DNA of 64,000 nucleotides from Microglena sp. YARC (lineage: Eukaryota > Chlorophyta > Chlorophyceae > Chlamydomonadales > Chlamydomonadaceae). The stretch covers positions 38,805,754 through 38,869,753 of the forward strand of contig CM039465.1 of the NCBI GenBank assembly GCA_022414725.1, in the 5' to 3' direction. Every line of letters begins with the position of its first letter. Position 1 is the stretch's first letter. The notes beneath the pieces were generated by a model. The model saw only the letters and a list, made by a program, of their open reading frames with translations. It was not told the origin of the DNA and made no database searches. Made by a program: the position numbers and the translations under genes. Positions 1-27,159 of the stretch are shown one piece after another.

Positions 1-766
1 TACAAAACACTACAAAGCTAGCTACGGGAGTAAGACCACACTAAAGCACCACTCTACATACCACACCCGCTAGCTACGGCGGTAAGACCACACCCAGACC
101 ACACTACAAAACACTACAAAGCTAGCTACGGGAGTCAGACCACACTACAGCACCACACCCGCTAGCTACAGGGGAAAGACCACACTATCACACCACTCCA
201 CAGACCACACCTGCTAGCTACGGGGGTAAGACCACACCCAGAGACACTGCAGACCACATTACAGAGCACACTACTGACCACACCCAGACCACACTACAAA
301 ACACTACATATCTAGCTACATGAGTAAGACCAAACTACAACAGCACACCTTGCACCATGCTCAAACAGTTGAGAGGAGGGCTGGTCCATTGGCAAGCCAT
401 GTCCATTGTCAAATACTACTGCTAAGTTGGGGGGTCTTCGGCACCCTTTTATTTGGCTGGGAAGGGTGCCTTATGGGTCTGAGGGGTGCTGCAGGGGTGC
501 AGGAAAGGGTGCTGAAGACCCCCTAAATTTGTTGGCTTGGCTTGAAAGGGTGCTGAAGACCCCCTACATTTGCAACGTACGGCCTAGTTCTCGACGTTAC
601 GTCCCACTTTTCGAGCAGCCTTCATTTACGGCAAATACTGCTCTCTACCTGGATTAGACCTCTGTCTCAATAGCCTCTGAGCCTCTAACCACCCTAATCC
701 TACCCCCCCCCCCCCCCCCCCTCCTCTTCTCCCTCCCTCTCTCCCAACCAGACGGGTAAAAAAAAG
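1..766. repeat. Downstream of APC2: GCTAGCTACGGG minisatellite and pyrimidine tract
   Basis: At 1-330, irregular tandem units share GCTAGCTACGGG.GTAAGACC and CACACCCAGACCACAC. At 331-703, GGGTGCTGAAGACCCCCTA occurs twice. At 704-722 is a C run followed by a CT-rich tract. No gene is supported here. Confidence 0.8.
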
Positions 767-1098: not shown

Positions 1099-1099
1099 C

Positions 1100-1229: not shown

Positions 1230-4200
1230 CTACGGTGTGGTGCGAGGTGTGTTGTGTTGTGTTGTGTGTTGTGTGGTGTGGTGTTTTGTATCGTGTTGTA
1301 TTGTGTTGTGGAATGTAGTGTGTTGTGTGTTTTGGTGTGTTGTGGTATGTTGTGGTGAGGGGTGTTGTGTTGTGTGTTGCGTTATGTTGTGTGTTGTGTT
1401 GCGTGTTGTGGTCGGGGGTGTTGTGTTGTGTGTTGTGTTGCGTGTTGTGGTCGGGGTGTTGTGTTGTGTGTTGTGTTGTGTGTTTGGTAGGGGTGTTGTG
1501 TTGCGTGTTGTGTTGCGTGTTGTGGTCGGGGGTGTTGTGTTGTGTGTTGTGTTGCGTGTTGTGGTAGGGGGTGTTGTATTGTGTGTTGTGTTGCGTGTTG
1601 TGGTAGGGGGTGTTGTGTTGTGTTGCGTGTTGTGTTGCGTTTTGTGGTAGGGGGTGTTGTATTGTGTGTTGTGTTGCGTGTTGTGGTAGGGGGTGTTGTG
1701 TTGTGTTGCGTGTTGTGTTGCGTGTTGTGGTAGGGGGTGTTGTATTGTGTGTTGTGTTGTGTTGTGGAGTGTGTAGATGGGTCAAGAAAGCCGAGAGCAG
1801 CTCCACTGATTTGTCATACCCACGGTGTGGTGCGGGTGTGCTGTGGTGTTTTGTGTGTGTGTTGTGGTGAGGGGTGCTCTGTTGTGTTCTGGGGTGTTGT
1901 GTCGTGTTGTGTTGTGTGTGTAGTGTGTGTGTGGTGTGTGGTGTGTGATGTGTGTAGATGGGTCAAGAAAGCCGAGAGAAGCTCCACTGATTTGTCATAC
2001 CTGGAGAAACAGGGAGGTACAGACATCATTCCAATTGCAAATTTTGCTTGCTTGCTGCAATATCGCCTATATGATTTTGAGGATTAGTTGGAACGACCCC
2101 TCACGGATGTTATGGAGCGAGCATGTCTTGGTTCGAAAATGGCCAGTTAATACGTAATGTAATGTAATGTAATGTAATGTAATGTAATGTAATGTAATGT
2201 AATAATCAAATACCACTCTGCCCCTCCCCCCCCCCCACACACACACAAGTGCCACACAGATTTGCCTACATCGGACAATACACCGGGCACTACGCAGCAA
2301 GAAGACCAAGCACGAGACAAAGTCCTATCCCTCACACCCCCAATCCCGTCTTTCCAACCCATCCCAACCCGTTCCAACGCAGAAAACCCAATTTCAACCC
2401 GCCACAACCTCAATCCCGTCTTTCCAACCCATCCAAACCCATTTCTGTCAACTCCATATCATTCAAACCCATGTCTGTCAATTCCATACCTTTGAAACCC
2501 ATGTATGTCAACTCCATATCATTCAGACCCATGTCTGTCAATCCCATACCTTTGAAACCCATGTCTGTCAACCCCATATCATTCAAACTCATGTCTGTCA
2601 ATCCCATACCTTTGAAACCCATGTCTGTCAACTCCATATCATTCAAACCCATGTCTGTCAACCCCATATCATTCAAACCCATATCTCCCGTTTCCGATGC
2701 CGTTGTTGTTGATAGGACCAGGTAAAGAGATATTCATTGCTGGAGGTGGTGGTGGTGTGTTTGGCGGTGGAGGCAGTGGTGGTGTGTCGTGGTGGTGAAC
2801 GTGGTGGAGATGGTGGAGATGGAGGCGGGAAATCCTTTCAATAAAAACATAAACAAAGGGGACTCACTTAGGAGACCTACAAACATTTGCAGCATGGAAC
2901 GCAGCCGATGTAGAGGCAATCCCTTGTAGTTGAAATCCTTTCAATAAAAAACACAAACAAAGGGGACTCACTTGGGAGAGACTACGAACATGCGCAGCAT
3001 GGAATGCAGCCGATCTAGTGGCAATTCCTTGTAGTTTGTGAGCATGCCGTAGATGTAATTCTCAAAGGGGCTCATCTCCTCAATTGCAACCTCCTGGGCT
3101 CCCGACGTAACGGTAGCAGGTACCTCATCCTCAGCACCAAAGTCTGTGACCACAGTCCCTGCGACGTAGATTGTTGATTTCTTGTTGATTGATTGTCGAT
3201 CGATTGTCGATAGATTGTCGATCGATTGTTGATTGATTGTCGATTGCATGTCGATTGCTTGTCGATTGCTTGTTGATTGCTTGCTTGTCTATTGATTGTT
3301 CATTGATTGTCGATTGATTGTTTGATACATTGTTGATTGATTGACGATTAATTGTCCATTGTTTGTTGATTGCTTGTTGATTGCTTGTCGATAGATTGTT
3401 GATTGCTTGTCGATAGATTGTCGATTGATTGCTGATCGATTGTTGATTGATTGACGAATGATTGTCCATTGCATGTCGATTGCATTTCGATTGCTTGTTG
3501 ATTGCTTGCTTGTCTATTGATTGTTCATTGATTGTCGATTGATTGTTTGGTACATTGTTGATTGATTGACGATTGATTGTTCCTTGCATGTCGATGGCTT
3601 GTCGATTGCTTGCTTGTCTATCGATTGTTCGTTGATTGTTGATTGATTGTTTGATACATAGTTGATTGCTTGTTGATTGATTGTTGATTGATTGTTGATT
3701 GATTGTTTGATACATAGTTGATTGCTTGTTGATTGCTTGTTGATTGATTGTTGATTGATTGTTTGATACATAGTAGATTGCTTGTTGATTGCTTGTTGAT
3801 TGCTTGTTGATTGATTGTTGATTGATTGTTTGATACATTGTTGATTGCTTGTTGATTGCTTGTTGATTGCTTGAGCATTGATTGATTGTTGATTGATTGT
3901 TTGATACATTGTTGATTGCTTGTTGATTGCTTGTTGATTGCTTGTTGATTGCTTGTTGATTGATTGTTTGATACATTGTTGATTGCTTGTTGATTGCTTG
4001 TTGATTGATTGTTGATTGATTGTTTGATACATTGTTGATTGCTTGTTGATTGCTTGTTGATTGATTGTTGATTGATTGTTGATTGATTGTTTGATACATA
4101 GATGATTGCTTGTTGATTGCTTGTTGATTGCTTGTTGATTGCTTGTTGATCGATTGTTGATTGATTGTTAGATACATTGTTGATTGCTTGTTGATTGCTT

Positions 4201-7200
4201 GTTGATTGCTTGTTGATTGCTTGTTGATTGCTTGAGCATTGATTGCTTGTTGATTGATTGTTTGATACATTTTTGATTGCTTGTTGATTGCTTGTTGATT
4301 GATTGTTGATTGATTGTTTGATACATTGTTGACTGCTTGTTGATTGCTTGTTGATTGATTGTTGATTGATTGTTTGATACATTGTTGATTGCTTGTTGAT
4401 TGCTTGTTAATTGATTGTTGATTGCTTGTTTGATACATTGTTGATTGCTTGTTGATTGCTTGTTGATTGATTGTTTGACACATTGTTGATTGCTTGTTGA
4501 TTGCTTGTTGATTGATTGTTTGATTGCTTGTTGATTGCTTGTTGATTGCTTGTTGATTGCTTGTTGATTGATTGTTGATTGATTGTTTGATACATAGTTG
4601 ATTGCTTGTTGATTGATTGTTGATTGATTGATTGATTGTTTGATACTTGCTTGTTGATTGCTTGCTTGATTGTTGATTGCTTGTTGATTCATTGTTGATT
4701 GATTGTTGATTGATTGTTGATTGATTGTTTGATACATTGTTGATTGCTTGTTGATTGCTTGAGCATTGATTGATTGTTGAATGATTGTTTGATACATTGT
4801 TGATTGCTTGTTGATTGCTTGTTGATTGATTGTTTGATACATTGTTGATTGCTTGTTGATTGCTTGTTGATTGATTGTTGATTGATTGTTTGATACATTG
4901 TTGATTGCTTGTTGATTGCTTGTTGATTGTTGAGTTGCTTTAGCTGATTGCTTGATTGCTTGTTTGATTGTTGATTGCTTGTTGATTGCTTGTTGATTGC
5001 TTGTTGATTGATTGTTGATTGATTGTTTGATACATTGTTGATTGCTTGTTGATTGCTTGTTGATTGATTGTTGATTGCTTGTTTGATACATTGTTGATTG
5101 CTTGTTGATTGCTTGTTGATTGCTTGTTGATTGATTGTTTGACATTGTTGATTGCTTGTTGATTGCTTGTTGATTGATTGTTGATTGATTGTTTGATACA
5201 TTGTTGATTGCTTGTTGATTGCTTGCATTGATTGATTGTTGATTGATTGTTTGATACATTGTTGATTGCTTGTTGATTGTTTGATTGTTGATTGATTGTT
5301 TGATACATTGTTGATTGCTTGTTGATTGCTTGTTGATTGCTTGTTGATTGATTGTTTGATACATTGTTGATTGCTTGTTGATTGCTTGTTGATTGCTTGT
5401 TGATTGCTTGTTGATTGCTTGTTGATTGATTGTTGATTGATTGTTTGATACATTGTTGATTGCTTGTTGATTGCTTGTTGATTGCTTGTTGATTGATTGT
5501 TTGATACATTGTTGATTGCTTGTTGATTGCTTGTTGATTGATTGTTGTTGATGATACTTGATTGCTTGTTGATTGCTTGTTGATTGCTTGTTGATTGTTG
5601 CTTGTTGATTGCTTGTTGATACATTGTTGATTGCTTGTTGATTGCTTGTTGATTGATTGTTGATTGATTGTTTGATACATTGTTGATTGCTTGTTGATTG
5701 CTTGTTGATTGATTGTTGATTGATTGTTTGATACATTGTTGATTGCTTGTTGATTGCTTGTTGATTGCTTGTTGATTGCTTGTTGATTGCTTGTTGATTG
5801 CTTGTTGATTGATTGTTGATTGATTGTTTGATACATTGTTGATTGCTTGTTGATTGCTTGTTGATTGATTGTTGATTGATTGTTTGATACATTGTTGATT
5901 GCTTGTTGATTGCTTGTTGATTGATTGTTGATTGATTGTTTGATACATTGTTGATTGCTTGTTGATTGCTTGTTGATTGCTTGTTGATTGATTGTTGATT
6001 GATTGTTTGATACATTGTTGATTGCTTGTTGATTGCTTGTTGATTGATTGTTGATTGATTGTTTGATACATTGTTGATTGCTTGTTGATTGCTTGTTGAT
6101 TGTTTGTTGATTGATTGTTTGATACATTGTTGATTGTTGATTGCTTGTTGATTGATTGCTTTGATTGATTGTTTGATTGATTGTTTTGATACATTGTTGA
6201 TTGCATTGTTGATTTGCTTGTTGATTGATTGTTGATTGATTGTTTGTACATTGTTGATTGCTTGTTGATTGCTTGTTGATTGATTGTTTGATGATTGCAT
6301 TGTTGATTGCTTGTTGATTGCTTGTTGATTGATTGCATTGTTGATTGTTGATTGATTGTTGATTGATTGTTGATTGATTTGTGTTGATTGTTGTTGATGC
6401 TTGTTGATTGATTGTTGATTGATTGTTGATTGTTGCTTGTTGATTGCTTGTTGTTGATTGTTGATTGATTGTTTGATACATTGTTGATTGTTGATTGCTT
6501 GTTGATTGCTTGTTGATTGCTTGTTGTTTGTTGATTGATTGTTTGATACATTTGTTGATTGCTTGTTGATTGCTTGTTGATTGTTGTTGATTGCTTGTTG
6601 ATTGATTGTTGATTGATTGTTGATTGATTGCTTGTTGATTGCTGTTGATTGATTGTTGATTGATTGATTGTTTGATTGCTTGTTGATTGATACATTGTTT
6701 GATTGCTTGTTGATTGCTTGTTGATTGCTTGTTGATTGCTTGTTGATTGATTGCTTGTTGATTGCTTGTTGATTGCTTGTTGATTGCTTGTTGATTGCTT
6801 GTTTGAGTTGACATTGTTGATTGCTTGTTGATTGCTTGTTGATTGCTTGTTTGATACTTGTTGATTGTTTGATTGCTTGTTGATTTGCTTGTTGATTGCT
6901 TGTTGATTGATTGTTACATTACATTACATTACATTACATTACATGTTAAAGTCTACTTGACACCGCGAGGGTGTATGAGACTCTGTGCTTTAAACAAAAA
7001 GAAAAAGCACCCACAAAGCAAAAAACCCCATTACATCAGGGGTGTGTCGAGGACAAACAAACCAAACTCCCAACCACCGTTTTGGTGGCGTAGGTATTAA
7101 ACCCTTTAGAGCCGGACCCAGATCTCAACCACTTACAGTGGCGGAGGTAAGAAGCTAACAACTGAGAAGTCACAAGAAGAAAAAGAGGGATGATAAATTA

Positions 7201-10200
7201 CGGTGCCACTAAGCAGTCCAGGGCTTCCTGTCTTGCTCTTCTACAAGTAGAAAGATAGTCGGCTAGGTTGCTCCAAAAAGACTTAGTGCCATTTCCATTC
7301 ATAAAGGTTCTGAATGTGGAATCGCAGAATTCCACATTCCATACGGTTAAGTCGGTATCCTCCTGGACATGCCTATAAATATCTGTAAACAGCTTCTGGT
7401 AGCGGAGGCGAATAACATTATCATATCATGTTGATTGATTGTTCGATATATTGTTGATTGCTTGTTGATTGCTCGTTGATTGATTGTTGATTGATTGTTT
7501 GATACATTGTTGATTGCTTGTTGATTGCTTGTTGATTGCTTGTTGATTGATTGTTTGATACATTGTTGATTGCTTGTTGATTGCTTGTTGATTGATTGTT
7601 GATTGATTGTTTGATACATTGTTGATTGCTTGTTGATTGCTTGTTGATTGCTTGAGCATTGATTGCTTGTTGATTGATTGTTTGATACATTGTTGATTGC
7701 TTGTTGATTGCTTGTTGATTGCTTGTTGTTTGATTGTTGATTGATTGTTTGATACATTGTTGATTGCTTGTTGATTGCTTGTTGATTGATTGTTGATTGC
7801 TTGTTTGATACATTGTTGATTGCTTGTTGATTGCTTGTTGATTGCTTGTTGATTGATTGTTTGATTCATTGTTGATTGCTTGTTGATTGCTTGTTGATTG
7901 ATTGTTTGATACATTGTTGATTGCTTGTTGACTGCTTGAGCATTGATTGATTGTTGATTGATTGTTTGATACATTGTTGATTGCTTGTTGATTGCTTGTT
8001 GATTGATTGTTTGATACATTGTTGATTGCTTGTTGACTGCTTGAGCATTGATTGATTGTTGATTGATTGTTTGATACATTGTTGATTGCTTGTTGATTGC
8101 TTGTTGATTGATTGTTGATTGATTGTTGATTGATTGTTTGATACATTGTTGATTGCTTGTTGATTGCTTGTTGATTGCTTATTGATTGATTGTTTGATAC
8201 ATTGTTGATTGCTTGTTGATTGCTTGTTGATTGCTTGTTGATTGCTTGTTGATTGATTGTTGATTGATTGTTTGATACATTGTTGATTGCTTGTTGATTG
8301 CTTGTTGATTGATTGTTTGATACATTGTTGATTGCTTGTTGATTGATTGATTGTTTGATACATTGTTGATTGCTTGTTGATTGCTTGTTGATTGCTTGAT
8401 TGTTGATTGATTGGTTGATTGCTTGTTGATTGCTTGTTGATTGCTTGTTGATTGATTGTTGATTGATTGTTTGATACATTGTTGTTGATTGCTTGTTGAT
8501 TGCTTGTTGATTGCTTATTGATTGATTTGATACATTGTTGATTGCTGTTGATTTGCTTGTTGATTGATTGATTGATGTTGATTGTTTGATACATTGTTGA
8601 TTGCTTGTTTGATTGCTTGTTGATTGTTTGTTTTTGTTGATTGTTGATTGATTGTTTGATACATTGTTGATTGCTTGTTGATTGCTTGTTGATTGATTGT
8701 TGATTGATTGTTTGATACATTGTTGATTGCTTGTTTGATTGTTGATTTGCTTGTTTGATTGCTTGTTGATTGATTGTTGATTGATTGTTTGATACATTGT
8801 TGATTGCTTGTTGATTGCTTGTTTGATTGCTTGTTGATTGATTGTTGATTGATTGTTTGATACATTGTTGATTGTTGCTTGTTGATTGCTTGTTGATTGC
8901 TTGTTGATTGTTGATTGATTGTTTGATACATTGTTGATTGCTTGTTGATTGCTTGTTGATTGATGTTGTTGATTGATTGTTGATTGATTGTTTGATACAT
9001 TGTTGATTGCTTGTTGATTGCTTGTTGATTGATTGCATTGATTGATTGATTGATTGATTGATTGTTGATTGCTTGTTGATTGTTGTTGATTGCTTGTTGA
9101 TTGATTGTTGATGATTGTTTGATACATTGTTGATTGCTTGTTGATTGCTTGTTGATTGATTGTTGATTGATTGTTTGATACATTGTTGATTGCTTTGTTG
9201 ATTGCTTGTTGATTGTTGATTGATTGTTTGATACATTTGTTGATTGTGTTGATTGCTTGTTGATTGCTTGTTGATTGATTGTTGATTGATTGTTTGATAC
9301 ATTGTTGATTGCTTGTTGATTGCTTGTTTGAATTGATTTTGCTTGATTGATGCTTGATACATTGTTGATTTGCTTGTTGATTGATTGCTTTGATTACATT
9401 GTTGATTGCTTGTTGATTGCTTTTGATTGATTGCTTTGTTGATTGATTGTGTTTTGATTGTTTGATACATTGTTGATTGCTTGTTGATTGCTTGTTGATT
9501 GATTTGTTGATTGATTGTTGATACTTGTTGATTGCTTGATTGATTGCTTGATTGATTGTTGTTGATTGTTTTGATCATTGTTGATTGCTTGTTGATTGTT
9601 TGATTGATTGTTGATTGATTGTTTGATACATTGATTGTTGATTGCTTGTTGATTGCTTGTTGATTGATTGTTGATTGATTTGTTATTGATTGCTGTTGAT
9701 TGCTTGATTGCTGGCAATTGTTGATTGTTGATTGATTGTTTGATACATTGTTGATTGCTTGTTGATGAATTGCTTGATTGATTGTTGATTGATGATGCTT
9801 GTTGATTGCTTGTTGATTGTTGATTGATTGTTTGATTGTTGATTGCTTGTTGATTGTTGATGCATGATTGATTTGATTGATTGTTTGATACATTGTTGAT
9901 GATTGTTGATTGTTTTTGATTGATTGTTTGATACATTGTTGATTGCTTGTTGTTGCTTGTTGATTGCATTGATTGCTTTGTTGATGCTTGTTGATTGCTT
10001 GTTGATTGTTGATTGTTGTGAATTGATTGTTGTTTGATTGCTTGATTGCATTGCTTTGTTGATTGCTTGTTGATGATGCTTGTTGATTGCTGTGTTTGAT
10101 TGGGTGATGCTTGTTGATTGATATTGATGATTGTTTGATACATTGTTGATTGCTTGTTGATTGCTTGTTGATTGCTTGTTGATTGTTGATTGCTTTTGAT

Positions 10201-19200: not shown

Positions 19201-22200
19201 TAGCCAAAAAGAAACAGTGTTAGTGACCAGCTCCATTACCCTGAAGCGTCAAGTAAACATATTTTCCCCGACGACACTTGCTAGGGGTCGGCAATATGTA
19301 GGGGTCGGCTTGTGTTATATAATATTAGTCAATAAATAATATTAGATAATATTAGATAATATTAGACGGACGAGCCATCTCACCATAATTTTGAATTTAT
19401 TTGAAAAACTAATATTATTGTAACACTTTAACAATATTAGTTAATATTAGTTTTTCAAACACTAATATTAGTTGCCGTTCCCTAGCAATATGATATCATA
19501 TGATACCATGTCATCATATGATATCATATGATGCCGGCGGTCTGACTAGGTAACTTTGGCCTGGGGCATCATGTCATATCATATTAAATCAAATGACTTT
19601 TGTATGACATTATATGATATCATACTCGTCTTTGGTCAACATAATATGATTTACCGTTCCCTACACTTTGTCATTCTGTCACTATTCCCCCATTGCATGG
19701 CAACGCATGGCTAAACAAGTCAGAACTTCCCCTCAAGACCCCGCGGGTTCCACGCTTGGTGCTCCACAGGGTTCGGGGGGCAGCGCATCACACTGGGGTC
19801 GCACCGAGACACTCAATTTGTGACGCGTCGCACAAACAAATGTCAACTGCTGGCTGTCTATAACAATATAAATATTAAAACAATTACGTTCTTCTTCTCC
19901 CACGTTATAGGTACGTGTACGCAAACAATGTCTTGATGACAAACGTGTGTGACAAATGTCATCAATGTGCAAAATGCATGTTTCCTAAGACCCCCCCCCC
20001 CCCCCCCAAAAAAATATACAAAACTTAAAGAGGCAGTGCGTGTACGCAGACAACATCTTGATATTAACACATAAAACAGTACGACCCAATCACAGGCATG
20101 GAAGTGATGAGATGTCCAACGCCACAATCCTGAAATTAGGCCCCCCTTTTTGACCCCAATTTGTATGCCTTTAAGATTTGTCCCCCAGTGCCCCCACCCA
20201 CCCACACACCACCACCACACACACACACCACCACACACCTCCCACACCATTTTTCTGGATAAGTTTAAGAGCCCGCCTTAAAAAATAATATATATACATA
20301 CGCCCAGTGGGCCGCTAAAAAGTTGCTCGTGTACTACATGTCGGAAATGGGTTCTAAAGGGGCTCGTAAAACCCTGTAACCATAAAAAAAAGTCGAAAAA
20401 GTGTCGGGGGGGGGGGGGGGGGGGGGGGGGGGGGCGGCCGCTTTCAGATATTTCCTCTGGTGAAAACTGGAAGAGGCCAAAACTTCCTCAGGACTTGGTC
20501 TCTGATAAAATTAAGCAGACCTATGACACAAGCTTGACGAGATCTTTCCGAATCCACGCTTATTTCCGACAACGAGTAAATATGGAGGCATGATCCTCTA
20601 GATCTAAGTCGAGGCACCTGCCAGGCTGGCAGATCCAAGTACAGAAGTCGAGCCTAACTTCCTCACCAGACGGAATCTGACGAAGTTAAGCATACTCACA
20701 AAACTGGTTAGACGAGAGCATTTCGAATCCATGCTTGTTTTCGAGACTGAGTAAATGTGTCGTGGTAGTACTCGAGTAGTGACCTCCACAGGTTCCAAGT
20801 ACACCAAGTGTGAAAGTTGAGTCAAAACAGAAACTCAATATTTCATCCCCAAGCTTCTTGGGTATCAGGAGGGTACTTAGGCATGCAACTTAGGCTTAAC
20901 ACAACCTTCAATTCTCAAACACCAACACTAGCTAGCCCAGCTCAGAATGAGGACTAAGAAAGGGTGTTTGCTTGACTGTGTTGTCAAACTTTGATCAAAT
21001 CCAAATGTAAGACCACAAATGGATAGAGCTTGTCGAGGGGATCATTTATACTTTGCCCCCCTAAATATTAATTCCTGAAGGAGATATGGGCCTTTGGGGG
21101 GAGGGGGGGGGGGGGGGGGGGGGTAAGGCAGTTTTAGAAATTTCAGAGATAGGTATATGAAAAAAAATCCTCGCGACCCCCCGCATACGCCTTAACTTTT
21201 GCTACAAAACTGGAACTACAGAAAGCTGACAAAAAAACTAGCTCTTACCACGCCCAAGTGAGGCTTCCACTACAGTTTCCTCGGTTTCCTGTCATGGCAG
21301 CCCCCCCCATCCCACCCCCACAAAACCACACACCACCACCTCCCCCCCACAACTCCACCATGGCATGCAGCAGCCCGCCCCACTCTCACCACGCCCAAGT
21401 GAGGCTTCCACTGCAGTTTCCTCGGCGACTTGAGGGAGTGATATCTGTCATCGTATTGCTCCATGGCAGCGATGATGTACGCTGGCAGTACAAGCTGTTG
21501 CTCAGGGCTTGCAGAGTCCTGCGTTATCCAGGTACATGGAGTGTGTGTGCGTGAATCATATACTATATATCGTATTGCTCCATTTCAGGGATGATGTACG
21601 GTGCGAGTACGAGCTGTTGCTCAGGACTTGCAGAGTCCTGCGTTATCCAGGTGGAGTGTGTGTGCGTGAATCATATAATATATCGTATTGCTTCATGGCT
21701 GCGATGATGTTAGGTGCGAGTTCGAGCTGTTGCTCAGGACTTGCTGAGTCCTGTGTTATCCAGGTACATGGAGTGTGTGTGCGTGAATCATATAATATAT
21801 TGTATGATGTGGGGTGGGAGTAGGACTTGTGGAGTCCTGGGCTTCTGTATGTGTGTGTTAGGTGTGTGTGTATGTGTGTGTATGTGTATATATGTGTATG
21901 TATGTGCTTGTATACGTGTGTGTATATGTGTGTATATATGTGCGTGTACATGTGTGTGTGTGTGTGTGTGTGTGAGAGTCCTTTCAGCTGAATTTGAATG
22001 CTAGCTTCATGCTAGGCTCAAAGAAAGGGAAAGGGATCTGACTAGAAGCTGCTCAGTATGTGTGTTACAGTCCAGGGGTAGGCCAAATAGGCTGAAGGGA
22101 CTTGCCCAACAGTGACTGGAAGGGCTAACAATAAACAAACAGTGATGAACTGAACCCCAAACAATCGCTTTACTGTCAGGGGCCTTGGGTTTGTGCTACA

Positions 22201-25200
22201 GTGAACTTTAATTATATGACATTTAATCCATGCACGGCATGCGTACAAGGTGGTAGAGGGCATGAGTACATGGTGGTAGAGACCACTGCTGCCATGCGTA
22301 GCCCCAAAGAGAAACGCTCTGGTCTGTCAGTTGTTCAGTGGTATTAAAAAAAGTAATGAGAACGCCTGGTGGGGCGTGGTATTAAGGGAGCCTGTCGTAC
22401 GGCGGTAGAGAAGGGGTTGCTACTTTACCTGAGCATAGCTACCATGGCGGATGCCAGCGACCGTGAACTCTTAAGTGCAACCAGAGGGATTCGAACCCCG
22501 CACCTTCGGCGTATTTTACGGATGGTCAACCACCTAACCATTCGACGAAACAGGATTACCAATGATACGTAATACACATGCCTAAAGGAGTTGTTGTTGG
22601 TATGTGTTGGTGGTAGTGGTGGTGATGATTGCAGTGGTGGTGGTTATAGGTGGTGGTGGTATGGTATGGTGGTGATGATTTTAGTGGTGGTGGTTATAGA
22701 TGGTGTTGCTGGTAGGTGGTGATGATTGTAGTGGTGGTGGTTATAGGTGGTGTCGCTGGTAGGTGGTGATGATTGTAGTGGTGGTGGTTATAGGTGGTGG
22801 TTGTATGGTATGGTGGTGATGATTGTAGTGGTGGTGGTTACAGATGGTGTTGCTGGTAGGTGATGGTGGTGGTGGTTGTGGTGGTGATGATTGCAGTGGT
22901 GGTGGTGGTGGTAGCATCCTACCTTGGCATCGTCTGCCTTAGGCCAGTACAAGTGGCTGATGATGGTGGCCGATAAAGTCGACAATGCCATGGCCGTCAT
23001 CTCTGTAGAGGCAGCACTGCCAGAGTCAGCATCTTGTCTGTCATAGTGGTGTTGTTAGTGTTGTTAGTGTTGTTAGTGTTGTTAGTGTTGTTGTTGTTGG
23101 TATTGTTGGTGTTAGTGGTGGTATTAGTGGTGGTGTTAGTGGTTTTAGTGGTGGAGTTAGTGGTGTAAGTGGTGTTCGTAGTGTCAGTGGTGGTAGTGAT
23201 GATGGTGGCTGATAAAGTCGTCAATGCCATGGCTTTCATTTCTGTTGAAGCAGCACTGCCAGGGTCAGTATCTTGTCTGTCATAGTGGTGGTCCTGCACC
23301 CTTTCGGCACGCCTCTCACCCAAGATACACTGTTACAAGTAGGGAAAGGCAATATGATAACATATGATATCATGCGGATATTATGTCACCATATATATAT
23401 ATATATATATCATATGATACAGCTTGGTTAAACTAGACTTCAGTTACCATATGATACAATTTGTATGATATCATATGATATCATACTTGCCTTAGGTCAA
23501 ATTCATATGGTATGCTGGTTCCTAGTTATAAGCCAAGTTAAAGGGTGCGGAAGACCCCCCCAATTGTTCAGTGCCCCCACCTATCTTGCATCTGCTCAGA
23601 CTTGATTTGTTCGCTCCAGAGGTAACCCCCAAAGACTTCAATGCAGCACCCCCAAAACACAGAGATACATAATTGGGCACTAGTGCTATATACAGCGCTG
23701 TAGAGAATGCCCTGGTTCACAGCGCACCTGTCTTACATTTGCTCTGCCTTGATTGCTTCTCTCCAAAGACAACCCCCTAAGACTCCAACGTAGCACCCCC
23801 AAAACCTTAAGGTACCTAATTGGGCACTTGTGCTATAAGTAGCGCCGTAAAGAAAGCCCAGCTCCTGCGCACGTGTCTTACATTTGCTCTGCCTTGATTT
23901 CTTCGCTCAAAAGACAACCCCCAAAGAGTCCAACTTAGCACCCCCAAAACACAAAGGTGCATCATTGGGCATTAGTGCTATATACAGGGCCGTAAAGAAT
24001 GCCCTGGTTAGCAGCGCACCTGTCTTACATTTGCTCTGCCTTGATTGCTTCTCTCCAAAGACAACCCCCTAAGACTCCAACGCAATGCTATACTTGTGCT
24101 ATATACAGCGCCGTAGAGAAAGCCCTGGTTAGCAGCGCACCTGTCTTGCACCTGCTCTGCCTAGACTTGATAGCTCCAAAGACAACCCCAAAACACTAAG
24201 GTACACAATTAAGCACTTGTGCTATATAGAGCGCCATAAAGGTTCACAGCGCACCTGTCTTGCATCTGCTCTGCCTTGATTGCTCGGATGTTCATGTTGA
24301 TGCGTTTTGAATCTGCAATGTCTTTCAACATCACCTGGTGGCAGCGGTGGTGGTAGTAGTGGTAACTGTGTTGGCGGTGGTGTTGGTTATGGTGGTGTTG
24401 GTAATGGTGGTGTTGGTAGTGGTGGTGGTAGTAGTGGTAACTGTGTTGGTGGTGGTGTTGGTTATTGTGGTGTTGGTAATGGTGGTGTTGGTAGTGGTGG
24501 TGGTAGTAGTGGTAACCGCGTTGGTGGTGGTGTTGGTTATGGTGGTGTTGGTAATGGTGGTGTTGGTAGTGGTGGTGGTAGTAGTGGTAACCGTGTTGTT
24601 GTTGGTGGTGGTTATGGTGGTGTTGGTAATGGTGGTGTTGGTAGTGGTGTTGGTAATGGTGGTGTCTGTGGTGGTGTTGGTAATGGTGGTGTTGGTAGTG
24701 GTGGTGTCTGTGGTGGTGTTAGTGGTGGTGTCAGTGATGGTGTTAGCGGTGGTGGAGTTAGACGTGTTGTCAGTGGGGAGCAGGGGGTCAGAAGGGACCA
24801 GAGAAGATGGTTGAGTCTGCAATGTCTTTCAACATCATCTGGTGTCAGTGTTATAGTGGCGGGGTTAGTGGTGTTAGTGGTGGTGGTGTCAGTGGTGGTG
24901 TCAGTGGTGTCAATTATGGTGTCAGTGGTGTTGGTGTTGGTAGTAGTGGTGTGACCAATGAGGAAAACGTGGTGATCGATAGGGGAACGCGAGGATTGTT
25001 ATCTGTCACACTTCACCCCTCTTTCGAAGGACCGACGCCCACTATCGGTGTACACGTCCGACCCGGCCAGGTACCAGGTACCATCGCCTCCGTTATCTGT
25101 CACCAAAAGGGCGGCGATCGTAATGTGTAACCCGCATACTGTCATGTGTAACCCGCATACTGTCATGTGTAACCTGCATACTGTCACGTGTAACACGCAT

Positions 25201-27159
25201 ACTGTCATGTGTAACCCGCATACTGTCATGTGTAACCTGCATACTGTCACGTGTAACCCGCATACTGTCATGTGTAACCCGCATACTGTCATGTGTAACC
25301 TGCATACTGTCACGTGTAACCCGCATACTGTCATGTGTCTTTCGAAAGACCGACGCCCACTATCAGTGTGCACGTCCTGCTCAGCCAGGTCCCCTTCCGT
25401 CGAAGGAGATTTCCTCAGACAGCCGAGCTGCACTTTGGTTCTTGGGGGGATCGAACTCGGGGTGCTTGGCGACCGTTCGCTCCAAGCAGGCCCTCAACAA
25501 CTCCATCAATTGTAACCAATGAGGAAAACGTGGTAATCGATGAGGGAACGCGAGGATCGTTATCCGCCACAAGAGGTAGAGGTGGTGGTGCTGTGGTGTG
25601 ACAGATGGTCGGGGGCACCCATTCTACACAGAGACCCTTTGAAGGGGGGTGGAGTGTGACAGATGGTCGGGGGCACCCATATTACACTGATACCCTATGA
25701 AGGGGGGTGAAGTGTAACACATGGTCAGGGGCACCCATACTTCACAGATACCCTTTGAAGGGGGGTGAAGTGTGACAGATGGCTGGAGGAGCCCATACTT
25801 CTAATGCACAATTCACACACACACCACACACACACACACCAGCCCCCCCCACACACCACACACACACCACCAACCCCACCCACCCACACACACTCATACA
25901 CACACCCCACACACACCAACCCTGCCTTGCAGAGGCCCTTCACAACGAGTTTTGGAGGAGCCCATACTACTAATGCACAATTCACACACACACCACACAC
26001 ACAACACCAACCCCACCCACCTACACACACACTCGTACACACACCCCACACACACCAACCCTACCTTGCAGAGGCCCTTCACAACGAGTATTGGAGGAGC
26101 CCATACTACTCGAGACTTCCCCTGATCGGTCATCACATTTCCCCCTGTTGCGCACAACCAACCTCACACATGTGCAGGGAACGGCAAATAATATGATGTT
26201 TACCAAAGACGAGTATGATATCATATGATATCATACACAAATCATATGATTTAATATCATATGATATGATGCCCCAGGCCAAAGTTACCTAGCCAGACTG
26301 CCGGCATCATATGATATCATATGATATCATATTGCCGATCCCTACACATGTGCAGTGCATCCTCCATTTGCTCACAACCTACCTTTGTTGGTTGGGCCCA
26401 GTGAAAGCAAACGGGCTGGCCCACTCACATCTCGCCTCGCAATAAGGCATACTATTAATTTTGTTTATGTATGTATTTGCCACCTACCACGCACATGTGT
26501 AGTGCACCCTCTCTTTGCTCACAACCTGCCTTTGGCTGTTGGGCCCAGTGAAAGCAAACAGGCTGGCCCCCTCACTTCTCACCTCGTAAGGAGGCATACT
26601 ATTAATTTTCTTAATGGATTTATTTTGTGTTTCTATTTATTTAAGTGATGTATTTATTTTATGCATTTATTTATTTATGTTCTGTATTTATTTCATTTAC
26701 TTATTTATTTTATGTATATTCTATGTCTTTATTCATTGTATGCATTTATTTTATGCATTTATTTATGTTATATATTTATTTTATGTACTTATTTATTTAA
26801 AGTATATTGTATGTATTTATTTATTTTAATTTCCACGTACCTCACACATGTGCAGTGCACCCTCTCTTTGCTCTCAACCTATCTTTGGTGGTTGGGTCCA
26901 TGGAAAGCAAACAGGCTGGCCCCCTCACCTCTTGCCTCATAATAAGGCATCCAATTTATCTATTTTATTTATTTATTTTATGTATTTATTTTATCTTTTT
27001 ATTTTATATTTGTATTTATTGTATTCATTGTATCTTCCACGTACCTCACACATGTGCAGGGCTCCCTCTCCAAAGCGTAGCTTCAAAAGCTCAGTGGTGC
27101 GTATGTTTGCGGCACACTCATAATCAGAGCAGTACAGCAGCTTGGTGGCCAGGATGGAT
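1100..27159 (-). CDS. APC2: Anaphase-promoting complex subunit 2 (cullin-like scaffold), 3' half of gene, 8 exons
   Basis: APC2 is the cullin-related scaffold of the APC/C ubiquitin ligase; its C-terminal part binds the RING subunit APC11 and drives cell-cycle protein degradation in the nucleus and cytosol. Exons, in transcript order: 27159-27045, 24334-24255, 23016-22923, 21518-21390, 16639-16517, 15082-14929, 3158-2972, 1229-1100. Together they encode about 338 residues. Every intron begins GT and ends AG, and every phase matches (0,2,0,0,0,1,2). Diagnostic family blocks appear in the expected order: ELLKLRFGE, HMCE then VMLKDIADSKRIN, SATIISHLYWP, PRKLQWKPHLG, LLMQFNDEEQLNA, GMLTNYKELPLDRLHSMLRMF and YDKSVELLSAFL. 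This corresponds to the cullin-homology C-terminal half plus the terminal winged helix. The N-terminal half is not found; it should lie above 27159, in satellite, in the gap or elsewhere. Family recognition is from memory; the exon structure is read from the sequence. Confidence 0.93.
1230..1955. repeat. TG-rich minisatellite (TGTTGTGTTGCGTGTTGTGG)
   Basis: Irregular units of about 40 bp containing GTGTTGTGTTGCG and GGTAGGGGG separate the last-exon edge copies of APC2. Both strands are open because of the composition. Confidence 0.9.
1775..1819 (-). pseudogene. APC2 last-exon 5' edge copy, acceptor lost
   Basis: The copy encodes YDKSVELLSAFLTHL at the same phase as the true exon, but the acceptor AG has become GG. 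It is followed by TG-rich repeat instead of the LVGRE continuation. Confidence 0.85.
1956..2000 (-). pseudogene. APC2 last-exon 5' edge copy with intact acceptor
   Basis: This is a second copy of the YDKSVELLSAFLTHL edge. Here the acceptor (CTCCAG) is intact, so splicing could use it, giving a His/Thr-rich C-terminus read from the TG repeat on the opposite strand instead of the conserved end. Confidence 0.8.
2003..2700. repeat. (TAATG)n tract, C run, and 30-bp minisatellite
   Basis: 2003-2151 holds nothing recognised. At 2152-2202 is a (TGTAA)n tract; at 2220-2247 a C run with CA repeat; at 2330-2440 repeats of CAATCCCGTCTTTCCAACCC; at 2440-2690, 30-bp units alternating TCCATATCATTCAAACCC and ..CATACCTTTGAAACCC forms. 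The 30-bp length keeps frames open on both strands. Confidence 0.9.
2701..2867. repeat. GGT/GGA-rich tract
   Basis: A short purine-rich microsatellite-like stretch inside the last APC2 intron, ending at the decayed exon copy. Confidence 0.7.
2868..2931 (-). pseudogene. Decayed copy of APC2 exon 2972-3158 (3' end and donor)
   Basis: The minus strand reads NYKGLPLHRLRSMLQMF, then a frameshift and the same GTGAGT donor context. The copy includes the following intronic bases (AAAGGATTTC context), so exon end and intron start were duplicated together. Confidence 0.88.
2972..3158 (-). CDS. APC2: APC2 exon, GMLTNYKELPLDRLHSMLRMF
   Basis: The 187-bp exon has 2+183+2 bases, with acceptor GTCGCAG and donor GTGAGT. 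An acidic linker (DFGAEDEVPATVTSG, EEMSPFE) precedes the highly diagnostic YIYGMLTNYKELPLDRLHSM then LRMFVVSP, the conserved helix leading into the winged-helix domain. The intron upstream runs to 14928 and is filled with satellite. A decayed tandem copy of the 3' part with its donor lies at 2868-2931. Confidence 0.95.
3159..6913. repeat. 11-bp satellite, left block (inside APC2 intron)
   Basis: Monomers are TTGATTGCTTG and TTGATTGATTG, with TTTGATACATTG closing a higher-order unit of about 55 bp. Monomers at the left edge (3170-3650) are diverged (TGTCGATTG forms); the centre is homogeneous; beyond about 6100 many one-base indels appear. No monomer contains a stop on the minus strand, which creates very long Asn/Gln/Ser-rich open frames. 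Confidence 0.97.
6914..7425 (-). mobile_element. 5'-truncated LINE-like element with (TGTAA)n tail
   Basis: On the minus strand there is an open-frame remnant, a 3' untranslated part and then six (TGTAA) units (6914-6944). The 3' part (about 6945-7110) is a nearly exact inverted copy of 48495-48655. The element interrupts the 11-bp satellite and is in the same orientation as APC2, so its TGTAA tail is in sense within the intron. Confidence 0.75.
7198..7425 (-). pseudogene. 3' end of an unidentified retroelement-like ORF
   Basis: The minus-strand frame has about 75 codons ending in TAA at 7198-7200 and is cut at the 5' side by the satellite. It reads VIRLRYQKLFTDIYRHVQED, VWNVEFCDSTFRTFMN, FWSNLADYLSTCRRA and ends CLVAP. 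The composition is protein-like and unlike the neighbouring repeats. The family is not recognised; the retroelement assignment rests on position before the tail. Confidence 0.5.
7428..11395. repeat. 11-bp satellite, right block
   Basis: Same monomers as the left block. The right edge (11220-11395) again has diverged TGTCGATTG forms. Frequent one-base insertions and losses from 8400 to 11200 look like sequencing errors or real decay. Confidence 0.96.
11396..12640. other. Unique-looking APC2 intron sequence with a 70-bp direct repeat
   Basis: A segment beginning CACGTGAGCAATTCATAATG occurs at 11947-12020 and again at 12571-12645, flanking about 550 bp. A minus-strand frame at 11442-11666 (SELQEEEQSANAKP) is protein-like, but its phase does not fit between the flanking APC2 exons. 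No gene is claimed. Confidence 0.5.
12650..13280. repeat. CATGCATG/CAATCAATCCATC minisatellite
   Basis: Irregular tandem units combine palindromic (CATG/GCAT) runs, ATCAATCCATCAATC tetranucleotide-like runs and TACCATGCTCAATG. It lies within the large APC2 intron. Confidence 0.92.
13281..13532. other. Intron sequence, possible truncated MITE edge
   Basis: At 13303 the bases TTACAAGTAGGGACCAGCA resemble the end of the nearby MITE family. Nothing else is recognised. Confidence 0.4.
13533..13712. mobile_element. hAT-like MITE copy 1 (palindromic CATATGATATC family)
   Basis: Starts TAGGGACCGGCATATC and ends TTGCCGTTCCCTA, inverted termini shared with the other copies. The interior is dense in TCATATGATATCATATGA palindromes and contains GTTGACCAA and CAGACTGCCGG landmarks. 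No clear 8-bp duplication is visible at this copy. Confidence 0.8.
13713..14559. other. APC2 intron sequence with short dispersed-repeat fragments
   Basis: 13905-13960 (GGGGCGTGGTGTTAAGGG) matches the tail module of the SINE candidate. 14091-14140 (TTACAGTCCAGGGGTAGGCC) matches 22065-22120. ACGCCACGTGG occurs twice. The plus-strand frame at 14175-14516 has no recognisable motif and is not claimed as a gene. Confidence 0.5.
14560..14928 (-). repeat. Minisatellite grown from an APC2 exon donor junction
   Basis: Several units of roughly 50-75 bp repeat the last bases of exon 14929-15082 and its donor (minus: AACTAGATGGCAAGCTACATG then GTAGGT context), alternating with GGTATGGTGTGGTACATGGG-like spacer. 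Confidence 0.85.
14929..15082 (-). CDS. APC2: APC2 exon, helix LVRQKMLFWVNNGVVEE and linker
   Basis: The 154-bp exon has 51 codons plus one base. The acceptor is CATGCAG. The donor GTAGGT is chosen because phase 1 joins the next exon (two leading bases) in frame. VTLVRQKMLFWVNNGVVEES matches the R..L..WV..GVL.E motif of APC2, followed by a Ser/Gly-rich linker. The donor side grades into a minisatellite (14560-14928) made of copies of the last part of the exon and its donor. A diverged copy of the 5' part lies at 15482-15550. Confidence 0.88.
15130..15479. repeat. 79-bp tandem repeat, about 4.4 copies
   Basis: Units start at 15130, 15209, 15288, 15367 and 15446 with exact 79-bp spacing and very few substitutions. 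They lie between the two copies of an APC2 exon edge, and the last unit runs directly into the copy at 15482. Confidence 0.93.
15482..15550 (-). pseudogene. Truncated copy of APC2 exon 14929-15082
   Basis: The minus strand reads VGLSVTLVRQKMLFWINDGV then VQE after a CATGCAG acceptor. It has several conservative changes relative to the true exon, and then the homology stops. Confidence 0.88.
15620..15927. repeat. Repeats of the APC2 exon-5 donor context
   Basis: Repeated GAGGCACACTCACCGCCTCAC segments with spacers containing TTATTTTATTTTGGGTTAAC. They derive from the donor side of the exon copies to the right but keep almost no coding sequence. Confidence 0.75.
15928..16425 (-). pseudogene. 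Four tandem 3'-part copies of APC2 exon 16517-16639
   Basis: Copies lie at about 16353-16425, 16193-16266, 16065-16140 and 15928-15975. The first three keep PI.AT.LMQ.NDEEQLNA then QLSEA and a good donor (GTGAGT or GTAAGT). All lack the VELEISLAG half; each begins near a potential AG just before CCTCCCATC. Substitutions are mostly conservative (for example M to I, L to M). They could be decaying debris or cassette-like alternative exons. Confidence 0.85.
16517..16639 (-). CDS. APC2: APC2 exon, VELEISLAG to QFNDEEQLNA
   Basis: The 123-bp exon is exactly 41 codons in phase 0, with acceptor CCACCAG and donor GTGAGT. It encodes VELEISLAGVEVDF, then VSPIMATLLMQFNDEEQLNA and AQLSEA. This matches the APC2 V..E.....F.V.P..A...QF segment at the start of the winged-helix-like region. 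It is the only copy with the full 5' half; four shorter copies follow between 15928 and 16425. Confidence 0.93.
16640..17086. repeat. (TGAA)n, dispersed repeat segment, (TA)n, G-rich run
   Basis: 16670-16748 is (ATGA)n. 16770-16860 and 16885-16955 are two copies of a GGCGTGAGGTTGAGGGGGCC segment, found inverted near 26400-26950. 16853-16872 is (TA)n. 16958-17022 is an almost pure G run with scattered A, able to form G-quadruplexes on the plus strand. Confidence 0.9.
17087..17800. repeat. (TGTAA/TGCAA) pentanucleotide array and (TGAA)n
   Basis: 17087-17545 is a long array of TGTAA with interspersed TGCAA and CGAATGTAA variants forming a higher-order pattern. 17560-17790 changes to ATGAATGA-type repeats. 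On the APC2 (minus) strand the array reads TTACA. Confidence 0.95.
17801..18241. other. AT-rich intron sequence with about 60-bp repeats
   Basis: 17840-17985 has three diverged units containing TTTAAATTTATGTTTGATTTAACA and CATATGC. 17979-18015 (ATTACATTACATT then GTCAAAGTCTACTT) looks like a remnant of the LINE-like 3' end. 18020-18233: nothing recognised. Confidence 0.55.
18242..18429. mobile_element. hAT-like MITE copy 2 with perfect 8-bp TSD
   Basis: The element is 188 bp, starting TAGGGGACGGCAATATG and ending with the imperfect inverted form TTTGCTGTTCCATA. It is flanked by CTATTTTG at 18234-18241 and 18430-18437. The 8-bp duplication and TAGGG..CGGC termini fit the hAT superfamily. No transposase is encoded. 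Confidence 0.88.
18438..18600. repeat. Tandem repeat of about 64 bp, 2.5 copies
   Basis: Units contain AGGGCCTGAAGTACAAGATAC and TACAAAATGTATTTTGAATT with small changes. Confidence 0.85.
18601..19281. mobile_element. Cluster of a second inverted-repeat element family
   Basis: The clearest copy, about 18896-19032, has arms GCAGCTTCTAGGCAGCTCC and GGAGCTGCCTAGAAGCTGC around a short AT-rich interior. Partial arms lie at 18610-18680, 18790-18820 and 19160-19200. The family recurs at 51918-52092 and 58680-58863. No protein is encoded. Confidence 0.65.
19282..19662. mobile_element. hAT-like MITE copy 3, split by a nested element
   Basis: The left end (19282-19298, TAGGGGTCGGCAATATG) and the remainder (19485-19662, ending TACCGTTCCCTA) belong to the CATATGATATC family. 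They are separated by the nested insertion at 19299-19484. Confidence 0.85.
19299..19484. mobile_element. Nested TAGGG...CCCTA element (AATATTAG family), perfect 8-bp TSD
   Basis: The 186-bp element starts TAGGGGTCGGCTTG and ends TTGCCGTTCCCTA, with an interior rich in AATATTAG. It is flanked by GCAATATG at 19291-19298 and 19485-19492; removing the element and one copy restores the host MITE. It shares termini with the CATATGATATC family but not its interior. Confidence 0.88.
19663..21247. other. APC2 intron: homopolymers and a two-copy diverged repeat
   Basis: 19663-19990 nothing recognised. 19991-20007 C run, then A run. 20190-20245 CA/ACC repeat. 20406-20434 is an uninterrupted G run of 29. 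20450-20640 and 20641-20825 are two diverged copies sharing AACTTCCTCA, GACGAGA and CGACAACGAGTAAAT-like motifs; the second has 5S-rRNA-like blocks. 20830-21097 nothing recognised. 21098-21123 G run. Confidence 0.6.
21248..21320 (-). pseudogene. 3'-edge copy of APC2 exon 21390-21518
   Basis: The minus strand repeats the KLQWKPHLG end and donor context with substitutions, then diverges into a C/A-rich tract. Confidence 0.75.
21390..21518 (-). CDS. APC2: APC2 exon, PRKLQWKPHLG block
   Basis: The 129-bp exon is exactly 43 codons, phase 0 at both ends. Acceptor ATAACGCAG and donor GTGAGA. It encodes an LP..I..AMEQYDDRYHSLK stretch followed by SPRKLQWKPHLGV, matching the YE.LKA.R.L.WK..LG block before the beta-strand region of APC2. 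Truncated copies of either edge flank it at 21248-21320 and at 21575-21845. Confidence 0.9.
21575..21845 (-). pseudogene. Three 5'-edge copies of APC2 exon 21390-21518
   Basis: Copies at about 21587-21640, 21700-21765 and 21808-21845 repeat the acceptor and QDSASPEQQL..A..IIAAM coding part with divergence. They are separated by a GTGTGTGCGTGAATCATATA spacer and lead into a (TG)n tract at about 21850-21975. Confidence 0.82.
21846..22240. repeat. (TG)n/TATG tract and a dispersed repeat fragment
   Basis: 21850-21975 is TG-rich with TATA interruptions. 22063-22235 holds ACAGTCCAGGGGTAGGCC then TGATGAACTGAACCCCAAAC, which also occurs in both B-repeat copies (about 43000 and 62296). Confidence 0.75.
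22346..22560 (-). mobile_element. tRNA-derived SINE candidate
   Basis: On the minus strand a B box GGTTCGAATCC (22487-22497) lies about 32 bp after an A-box-like TGGTTAGGTGG (22530-22540), as in pol III tRNA promoters. The flanking bases do not fold into a full cloverleaf (no pairing acceptor stem), so this is not called a tRNA gene. The tail module (AACGCCTGGTGGGGCGTGG) recurs at 13905 and, inverted, near 55890. A second head-plus-tail copy lies at 55687-55915. Confidence 0.5.
22575..22915. repeat. GGT-rich minisatellite
   Basis: Units of about 50-60 bp contain GGTGATGATTGTAGTGGTGG and GGTTATAGGTGGTG; they end directly at an APC2 donor site. Confidence 0.9.
22923..23016 (-). CDS. APC2: APC2 exon, SATIISHLYWP block
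   Basis: The 94-bp exon has one base plus 31 codons, with acceptor TCTGGCAG and donor GTAGGA. It contains LSATIISHLYWPKADDAK, equivalent to the hydrophobic block ending in WP of other APC2 proteins. The acceptor was chosen because it is the one that joins the preceding phase-2 exon in frame; a reading extending further 5' (HYDRQDADSG) would break phase. A partial second copy lies at 23198-23293. Confidence 0.88.
23017..23197. repeat. GTT/AGT triplet repeat between exon copies
   Basis: (GTTGTTAGT)n and (GGTGTTAGT)n tract separating the true APC2 exon from its partial copy. Confidence 0.85.
23198..23293 (-). pseudogene. Partial copy of APC2 exon 22923-23016
   Basis: The minus strand has the same acceptor context and AASTEMKAMALTTLSATII, then runs into GTT/AGT triplet repeats (23041-23190). 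The homology extends upstream of the acceptor into the intron. Confidence 0.85.
23340..23524. mobile_element. hAT-like MITE copy 4 with near-perfect 8-bp TSD
   Basis: The 185-bp element starts TAGGGAAAGGCAATATG and ends GCTGGTTCCTA. Flanks are GTTACAAG (23332-23339) and GTTATAAG (23525-23532), one mismatch. The interior has an added (TA)n tract at 23390-23410. Confidence 0.85.
23581..24254 (-). repeat. Five tandem donor-edge copies of APC2 exon 24255-24334
   Basis: Copies at about 23581-23618, 23727-23764, 23874-23908, 24020-24057 and 24141-24177 each repeat the AIKAEQMQD-donor part (plus strand: TGTCTTACATTTGCTCTGCC), about 120-150 bp apart. Spacers share GTGCTATATACAGCGCCGTA and GACAACCCCCAAAGACTCC. 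Confidence 0.88.
24255..24334 (-). CDS. APC2: APC2 exon, VMLKD block
   Basis: The 80-bp exon encodes VMLKDIADSKRINMNI followed by RAIKAEQMQD and ends in phase 2. The acceptor is CCACCAG and the donor is GTGCGC. VML.D.ADS.R is one of the most conserved APC2 stretches and directly follows the CE of the upstream exon. Five truncated copies of the donor-side end lie immediately downstream (23581-24177) and one acceptor-side copy lies upstream (24811-24838). Confidence 0.92.
24335..24810. repeat. GGT-rich minisatellite between two APC2 exon-edge copies
   Basis: Units of about 75 bp contain GTTGGTAATGGTGGTGTTGG and AGTAGTGGTAACCGTGTTGG. Multiples of three keep a Gly/Val-rich frame open on the plus strand and a Thr/Asn-rich one on the minus strand; neither is a gene. 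Confidence 0.92.
24811..24838 (-). pseudogene. Acceptor-edge copy of APC2 exon 24255-24334
   Basis: The minus strand after a CACCAG acceptor reads MMLKDIADS, then diverges. It lies on the other side of the GGT-rich minisatellite from the true exon. Confidence 0.85.
24839..25599. repeat. Duplicated intron segments and 21-bp minisatellite
   Basis: CCAATGAGGAAAACGTGGT..TCGAT segments lie at 24953-25010 and 25513-25570. TCGAAAGACCGACGCCCACTATC-like segments lie at about 25023 and 25343. 25120-25340 is a 21-bp array (AACCCGCATACTGTCATGTGT and variants). No coding match to APC2 was found. Confidence 0.85.
25600..26166. repeat. 64-bp repeats and CA-rich repeats
   Basis: 25600-25790 has three units containing TGACAGATGGTCGGGGGCACC and CCCTTTGAAGGGGGGTG. 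25790-26110 has three units containing AGGCCCTTCACAACGAGT and CCCATACTACTAATGCAC with CACACACC tracts between. Confidence 0.88.
26175..26344. mobile_element. hAT-like MITE copy 5 with perfect 8-bp TSD
   Basis: The 170-bp element starts CAGGGAACGGCAAATAATATG and ends TTGCCGATCCCTA. It is flanked by CACATGTG at 26167-26174 and 26345-26352. The target is a truncated copy of the last bases of APC2 exon 27045-27159, so the exon-edge duplication predates this insertion. Confidence 0.9.
26345..27031 (-). repeat. Tandem donor-edge copies of APC2 exon 27045-27159 with TTTA spacers
   Basis: Copies of the CACACATGTGCAG exon end and its donor context lie at about 26346, 26490 and 26836; a fourth flanks the MITE at 26159-26174. 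Each is followed by a GGGCCCAGTGAAAGCAAAC-type segment and AT-rich TTTA repeat (longest about 26605-26830 and 26950-27031). The same segment occurs inverted at 16770-16950. Confidence 0.8.
27045..27159 (-). CDS. APC2: APC2 exon (first visible), cullin-homology core
   Basis: The minus-strand exon is 115 bp: one base completing a split codon, then 38 codons ending LHMCE. Acceptor GCACAG lies just above 27159 and donor GTACGT just below 27045. The block NIRTTELLKLRFGEGALHMCE matches the APC2 segment that precedes the VMLKD motif, and the next exon continues it exactly in phase 0. The exon supplying the first two bases of the split codon was not found. Confidence 0.9.

Follow-up and report, generated by a model that had tools for sequence, protein, structure and literature searches.

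Tandem copies of exon edges in the introns of APC2 and other genes of an algal nuclear genome

The APC2 gene in the window

The window analyzed here is a stretch of 64,000 nucleotides from a green-algal genome of 568 Mb, which is assembled in 2390 contigs, includes an rbcL gene, and has a GC content of 48.7% over the 345 kb sampled. The first 27 kb of the window carry, on the minus strand, the C-terminal half of the gene for APC2, a subunit of the anaphase-promoting complex. The gene was recognized through matches to PF08672, and its joined minus-strand peptides align with residues 519-817 of human APC2. To locate its exons, five APC2 proteins (Haematococcus, Astrephomene, Trebouxia, and two unnamed) were compared with the sequence by tblastn; the nearest named homologue is that of Haematococcus. 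Eight exons were obtained by homology, with edges accurate to within a few bases.

All eight exons lie on the minus strand. The first, at 27045-27164 (HRSILATKLL...ALHMCE/V; homology and sequence), ends at the donor GTACGT. It is followed by five exons placed by homology: 24254-24332 (VMLKDIADSKRIN...QMQD, donor GTGCGC), 22917-23051 (LSTLSATIISHLYWPK), 21387-21506 (PEQQLVLPAYIIAAMEQYDDRYHSLKSPRKLQWKPHLG), 16518-16640 (VELEISLAGVEVDF...AQLSEA, donor GTGAGT), and 14930-15085 (VGLPVTLVRQKMLFWVNNGVVEES..., with a 3' end that depends on weak homology). The exon at 2969-3165 (...FENYIYGMLTNYKELPLDRLHSMLRMFVVSPK) was assigned from PF08672 and homology, and the last exon, at 1100-1230 (YDKSVELLSAFLTHLVGREKIQVENGIYRMKT; homology and sequence), runs to the stop codon. 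Two further candidates were rejected: a stretch at 25.0-25.4 kb is without homology, the next exon being that which starts at 24332, and an open reading frame at 11.6 kb was matched by no homologue. Codon-usage scoring proved too weak for finding additional exons (exon mean 0.29, against a non-genic 95th percentile of 0.54).

The introns also contain repeats of other kinds. Most of the intron between the 14930 and 3165 exons is taken up by an 8.2 kb array (3171-11393) whose units are of the TTGTTGATTGC type. Related elements of about 150-190 bp, present in both orientations and bearing ATCATATGAT-like palindromes, lie at 13.5, 18.3, 19.5, 23.4, and 26.2 kb; they probably represent a MITE.

Copies of exon edges around APC2

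Self-comparison of the gene revealed direct repeats at its exons. Same-strand partial copies were found within 0.8 kb of all eight, at roughly one to five per copied edge, in agreement with the original prediction made from the sequence of the window. That prediction also held that the copies include exon edge, splice site, and adjoining intron. This is the case for six of the eight exons, where an exon piece, a kept GT or AG, and intron occur together in one copy; it does not apply to the last exon, where these elements are split, or to the exon at 22917-23051, where the match is to exon sequence only.

Three exons were correctly described as copied on the donor side (given there as 27045, 24255, and 16517). 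The end of the 27045 exon recurs within 26345-26866: edge alignment identified copies at 26866-26792 and 26513-26453, both keeping the GT, and a short third copy at about 26345-26390, recognized by eye, has lost it, so that the dinucleotide is present in two of three. Five copies of the 24254 exon end, with a period of about 147 bp, occupy 23552-24165 and keep the GT in every case. The 16518 edge has four copies at 15922-16434, and the GT is kept in all three that reach the site. A donor-side copy of the 2969 edge (2829-2931; period about 105 bp) likewise keeps its GT.

Other exons are copied on both sides, as had also been anticipated. The 21506 edge has two acceptor-side copies at 21548-21798 (period 113-119 bp; AG kept in both), while the 21387 edge of the same exon has one donor-side copy at 21242-21284 with the GT kept. 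The exon ending at 14930 had been described as copied on the acceptor side, but both of its edges are involved: an acceptor-side copy of the 15085 edge at 15481-15565 keeps the AG together with 12 matched intron bases, and a donor-side minisatellite derived from the exon end, with a period of about 74 bp, lies at 14553-14795. The GT is kept in all five overlapping matches to this donor edge. The start of the 23051 exon has a single acceptor-side copy at 23197-23290, an exon-only match of 85 of 94 bases.

The last exon is copied on the acceptor side, as described. Edge alignment and inspection of the sequence place two copies of it at 1775-2002. The copy at 2002-1956 keeps the AG with no further intron matched, and in the copy at 1875-1775 the intron is matched and the AG changed to GG; the AG is thus kept in one of two copies at the 1230 edge, and is never joined with intron in the same copy. 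Of the acceptors, that of the upstream-most copy (1956-2002; TTTCTCCAG) looks stronger than the CCGTAG that precedes the complete exon at 1230. The end of this exon and its 3' flank additionally form an array of 98 bp x 3.5 at 737-1087, beyond the end of the gene.

Tandem-repeat finding confirmed that expanded micro- and minisatellites lie between copies, for example at 15127-15479, where an array of 79 bp x 4.5 separates two copies of the 15085 exon sequence. The copies diverge from their exons by roughly 5-35% and differ among themselves in many columns. The retention of GT is not taken as a sign of selection because copies within one array are not independent.

Occurrence in other genes and in the genome

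Edge copies were also found in genes elsewhere in the genome. PRP8 was picked by name, blind to its copies; for each of its three sampled exons there are same-strand copies of exon sequence. Exons 2 and 3 have acceptor copies with AG and intron, whereas exon 1 has an exon-only copy; two exon-only pieces also lie downstream of exon 2.

A larger sample comprised 32 kinase loci from the 136 kinase matches listed. These were partial matches on large contigs, hand-picked in roughly E-value order rather than at random; two of the loci appear giant-virus-like and three contain many Ns. A same-strand copy across an edge was found for 20 of 31 host kinase exons, with edges taken as the ends of homology rather than exact splice sites and given 30 bases of slack each. 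The copies span 33 of 62 host edges (15 acceptor and 18 donor), 13 exons being copied at both, and the other 11 exons have no edge-spanning copy. Within 2 kb, none of the 33 rows of the kinase sample had an opposite-strand copy spanning an edge, and a search out to 6 kb gave one opposite-strand match, which overlaps the exon at locus L021. Neither of the two virus-like kinase exons has an edge-spanning copy. CDPK protein matches include sequences from Tetrabaena, Haematococcus, and Chlamydomonas sp. UWO 241, which, with the Haematococcus match of APC2, points to a member of the Chlamydomonadales.

Duplications cover more than 0.15 of the sequence at 23 of 31 gene loci, compared to two of eight random stretches (Fisher p = 0.016). 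The individual values for the random stretches are 0.82, 0.02, 0.02, 0.00, 0.36, 0.06, 0.02, and 0.00; laxer settings raise two of them, L036 to 0.54 and L040 to 0.17. At the two virus-like loci the cover is 0.03 and 0.07. Duplication looks concentrated in host genes, in a sample that is small and in which young transposons may dilute the random stretches. Eight of the 31 gene loci outside APC2 show little duplication, including three with more than one exon recognized (L014, L015, and L024). One of these, L015, was considered as an intronless retrocopy of its paralogue L016, but its own matching pieces are separated too, and it was therefore scored as a multi-exon gene without copies. Within the window, one other exon was identified, that of a DNA methylase at 59851-60026 on the plus strand; it is flanked on its two sides by arrays at distances of 7 and 26 bp, and its edges are themselves uncopied.

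Taken over these loci, tandem edge copies are not confined to APC2, and so far they look like a general habit of this alga's genes more than a process directed at exon edges.

Separately, the kinase searches brought up multi-copy intronless kinases, namely L006, L020, and many 1-255 kinase matches. The two virus-like kinases of the sample are 83% identical to each other. The reading frames of the intronless kinases appear giant-virus-like, and they are perhaps endogenous virus DNA.

Nature and growth of the copied units

The copies are locus-specific tandem repeats, not introners. Among the loci compared, 27 of the 31 units tested match only within their own locus, which is not the distribution of one element in many unrelated genes that defines introners, and which agrees with the prediction that ordinary transposons are not the source. 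Two further units match only a paralogous gene (L003 with L002, and L016 with L015). One other gave three short, weak matches outside its locus, and at the 27045 exon part of the unit is a dispersed repeat that has 18 further matches. A total of 312 duplication events, drawn from the host loci, the random loci, and the initial 28 kb of the window, vary widely in spacing; 121 of them fall at 100-200 bp, and the commonest bin is 160-180 bp (n = 30).

Alignments of individual arrays point to serial local growth in some of them. The donor array of one exon in L012, a CDPK gene, contains five copies whose neighbours are up to 95% identical and which all share 16 differences from the exon. In the acceptor array, with eight copies, it is the third copy rather than the first that best matches the exon. 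In L022 the first copy is the nearest to the exon in sequence (95%). Altogether, four L012 and L022 arrays were aligned; in three of them the first copy is the one most similar to the exon, and neighbours are clearly most alike in two of those three. In the six arrays assessed for the minisatellite pattern, head-to-tail order with adjacent units most alike is clear in the L012 exon 3 donor and L022 X2 donor arrays. Neighbour similarity is not clear in the two aligned APC2 arrays, which are star-like and older-looking. A donor array and an acceptor array together make up most of two introns in L012 and of one in L022.

The exon and intron portions of the copies have diverged to a similar degree. 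Over 21 junction copies that have 15 bases or more on both sides of the edge, identity is 87.6% in the exon parts and 86.8% in the intron parts; the corresponding values for the APC2 junction copies alone (n = 15) are 87.5% and 85.9%. In the paralogues L002 and L003, acceptor-side copies are 86% and 91-93% alike within each gene, compared to 79% for exons between the genes. For breakpoint microhomology, there were only eight pairs at 93% identity or above, too few for analysis.

Origin of the copies

In our assessment, the copies probably result from frequent but untargeted short tandem duplication in the nuclear DNA of genes, with selection preserving one exon intact. Short tandem duplications, with spacings mostly of about 100-200 bp, would arise at positions unrelated to exons. 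A duplication inside an exon would damage the protein and be lost. One that crosses a single exon edge would be nearly neutral: the extra piece of exon, the splice site, and the start of the intron would land in the intron, and the change would be tolerated because the complete exon still has a splice site of its own, which we infer to be the one used. If introns were once only a few hundred bases long and the units 100-200 bp, much of the tolerated duplication would consequently straddle an edge. An array with two copies would then grow by further local duplication among copies and decay by mutation, and introns would hence fill with fragmentary copies of the exon ends on either side. The tandem, same-strand, and locus-specific arrangement of the copies in many sampled genes is the observed part of this account, as are their spacing and the serial growth seen in some arrays.

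It is possible, though doubtful, that duplication is instead biased toward junctions, started at edges by splicing-coupled R-loops, by a nucleosome positioned on the exon, or by slippage at the step in composition between exon and intron. Several results speak for this. In four annotated genes, of which APC2 was selected on account of its pattern and L012 and L022, annotated with CDPK proteins, once their copies were already known, non-microsatellite duplications enclose 19 of 32 edges, compared to 8.8 under circular shifts (p = 0.0003; APC2 10/16). Similarly, 20 of 32 array clusters cover an edge, compared to 6.2 when they are placed at random with exons left whole, where a cluster is counted by its extent over the edge even if the matched pieces stop there, and exon-only copies are included. 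By gene, the numbers are 9/20 for APC2 (p < 1/3000), 4/4 for PRP8 (p = 0.046), 4/5 for L012 (p = 0.019), and 3/3 for L022 (p = 0.12). The L012 and L022 introns built largely of a donor and an acceptor array fit the same reading, as does the commonest spacing of 160-180 bp. So do the L002 and L003 copies, which are more alike within a gene than the exons are between genes, as if they had been duplicated separately or kept alike.

Other tests disagree. Kinase edges are spanned at a frequency of 0.53, compared to 0.44 for control points in these loci at distances above 1 kb (p = 0.30), and once exons are masked, duplication cover near them does not significantly exceed that far away. Likewise, 29 of 138 arrays overlap known edges where 20.3 were expected (sd 3.9). 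The DNA methylase arrays lie beside its edges, not across them, and several multi-exon genes lack copies altogether. Masking of exons gave mixed results: edge flanks are duplicated about twice as often as random intron points in APC2 (7/16 vs 0.22) and PRP8 (2/6 vs 0.14), but there is no excess in L012 (4/8 vs 0.55) or L022 (3/4 vs 0.79). In APC2, in line with an edge preference, cover drops from 0.40 near exons to 0.10 far away. The negative tests are weak, however, because the far stretches hold unannotated exons.

Some edge preference may exist. The original proposal of intron growth by recurrent edge-straddling duplication is supported in its recurrence, which extends to the kinases and PRP8, and the excess over background that it implied is present in the four annotated genes but not significant in the kinase sample, where the junction does not emerge as a preferred target. 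With the edge tests in disagreement, we place untargeted duplication first, as the probable explanation, and junction bias second, as a tentative one. In its strongest form, in which nucleosome-sized tandem duplications would concentrate in hot spots at splice junctions and transcription, splicing, or exon-bound nucleosomes push intron growth inwards from the edges, the latter seems rather unlikely; if true, such hot spots would leave rows of intact-looking decoy splice sites for the spliceosome to ignore.

The apparent concentration at edges could also be an effect of visibility, in that old duplications confined to introns decay unseen while copies of conserved exons stay detectable, with APC2 noticed as an extreme case. 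Duplication cover is significantly higher near exons than far from them when exons are left unmasked (0.39 vs 0.27, p = 0.011), and this excess is not significant after masking (0.34 vs 0.27, p = 0.25; 0.36 vs 0.275, p = 0.14 in a second comparison). Yet the exon parts of junction copies are hardly better kept than the intron parts, and the copies are real regardless; we regard this explanation as improbable. Far less credible is the carriage of exon ends by transposable or introner-like insertions, to which the MITE-like elements in the same introns and the dispersed repeat in the 27045 unit might point: the copies examined are local, same-strand, and exon-specific, and all but two of the 31 units are unmatched outside their own locus or its paralogue among the loci compared. 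An assembly artefact, conceivable given the 2390 contigs and the runs of N in the window and some loci, can hardly be entertained, as roughly 5-35% divergence from the exon and many differences between copies across unrelated loci are beyond what false joins or read errors produce.

Relation to known systems

The algal copies share features with several known systems. Intronic minisatellites are head-to-tail repeats that grow locally and have similar neighbours. The arrays of the alga resemble them in period, in head-to-tail order, and, in some arrays, in the similarity of neighbours; they differ in their founding unit, which for a large proportion of the sampled exons contains the exon end together with its splice site. 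Introners insert copies of themselves in many genes. As with introners, introns have been remodelled on a large scale within one lineage, but the units of the alga are specific to their locus among the loci compared.

The closest published case found appears to be that of a potato RdRp gene. A tandem same-strand duplication there crosses an intron-exon border and copies the splicing signals, and a new intron arises (PMC4974935). The algal copies are likewise tandem, same-strand, and across an intron-exon border; unlike that single gene with its new intron, they lie inside existing introns, several per edge and in many genes. Direct repeats near intron splice sites are described, in a second report, as 4-30 bp long and located at both borders of an intron (PMC11782384). 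The repeats of the alga also lie around intron-exon borders, but their units are about 75-240 bp and are repeated into one intron. No prior description of systematic junction-spanning copies of exon edges was found in the open-licence literature. The algal case stands apart in its extent, since within a single genome a large proportion of the sampled exons have several copies to an edge.

Implications and further observations

The growth of genomes is usually attributed to transposons. In this large nuclear genome, tandemly copied intron borders make up a good part of the introns and are a direct source of intron length. They also constitute a natural experiment, in which the spliceosome must choose the real site over several near-identical decoys. 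For gene annotation, they are a warning: the predicted protein P0158 repeats exon pieces. The EukProt predicted proteins P0122 and P0158 match this genome at 98-100% over parts of their length, and the second match of P0158 to one repeated exon piece maps about 70 bp beyond its exon.

Beyond APC2, translated frames at about 49.1-52.5 kb and 55.9-59.2 kb of the window are partly near-identical, which suggests a direct segmental duplication with its copies 6-7 kb apart.
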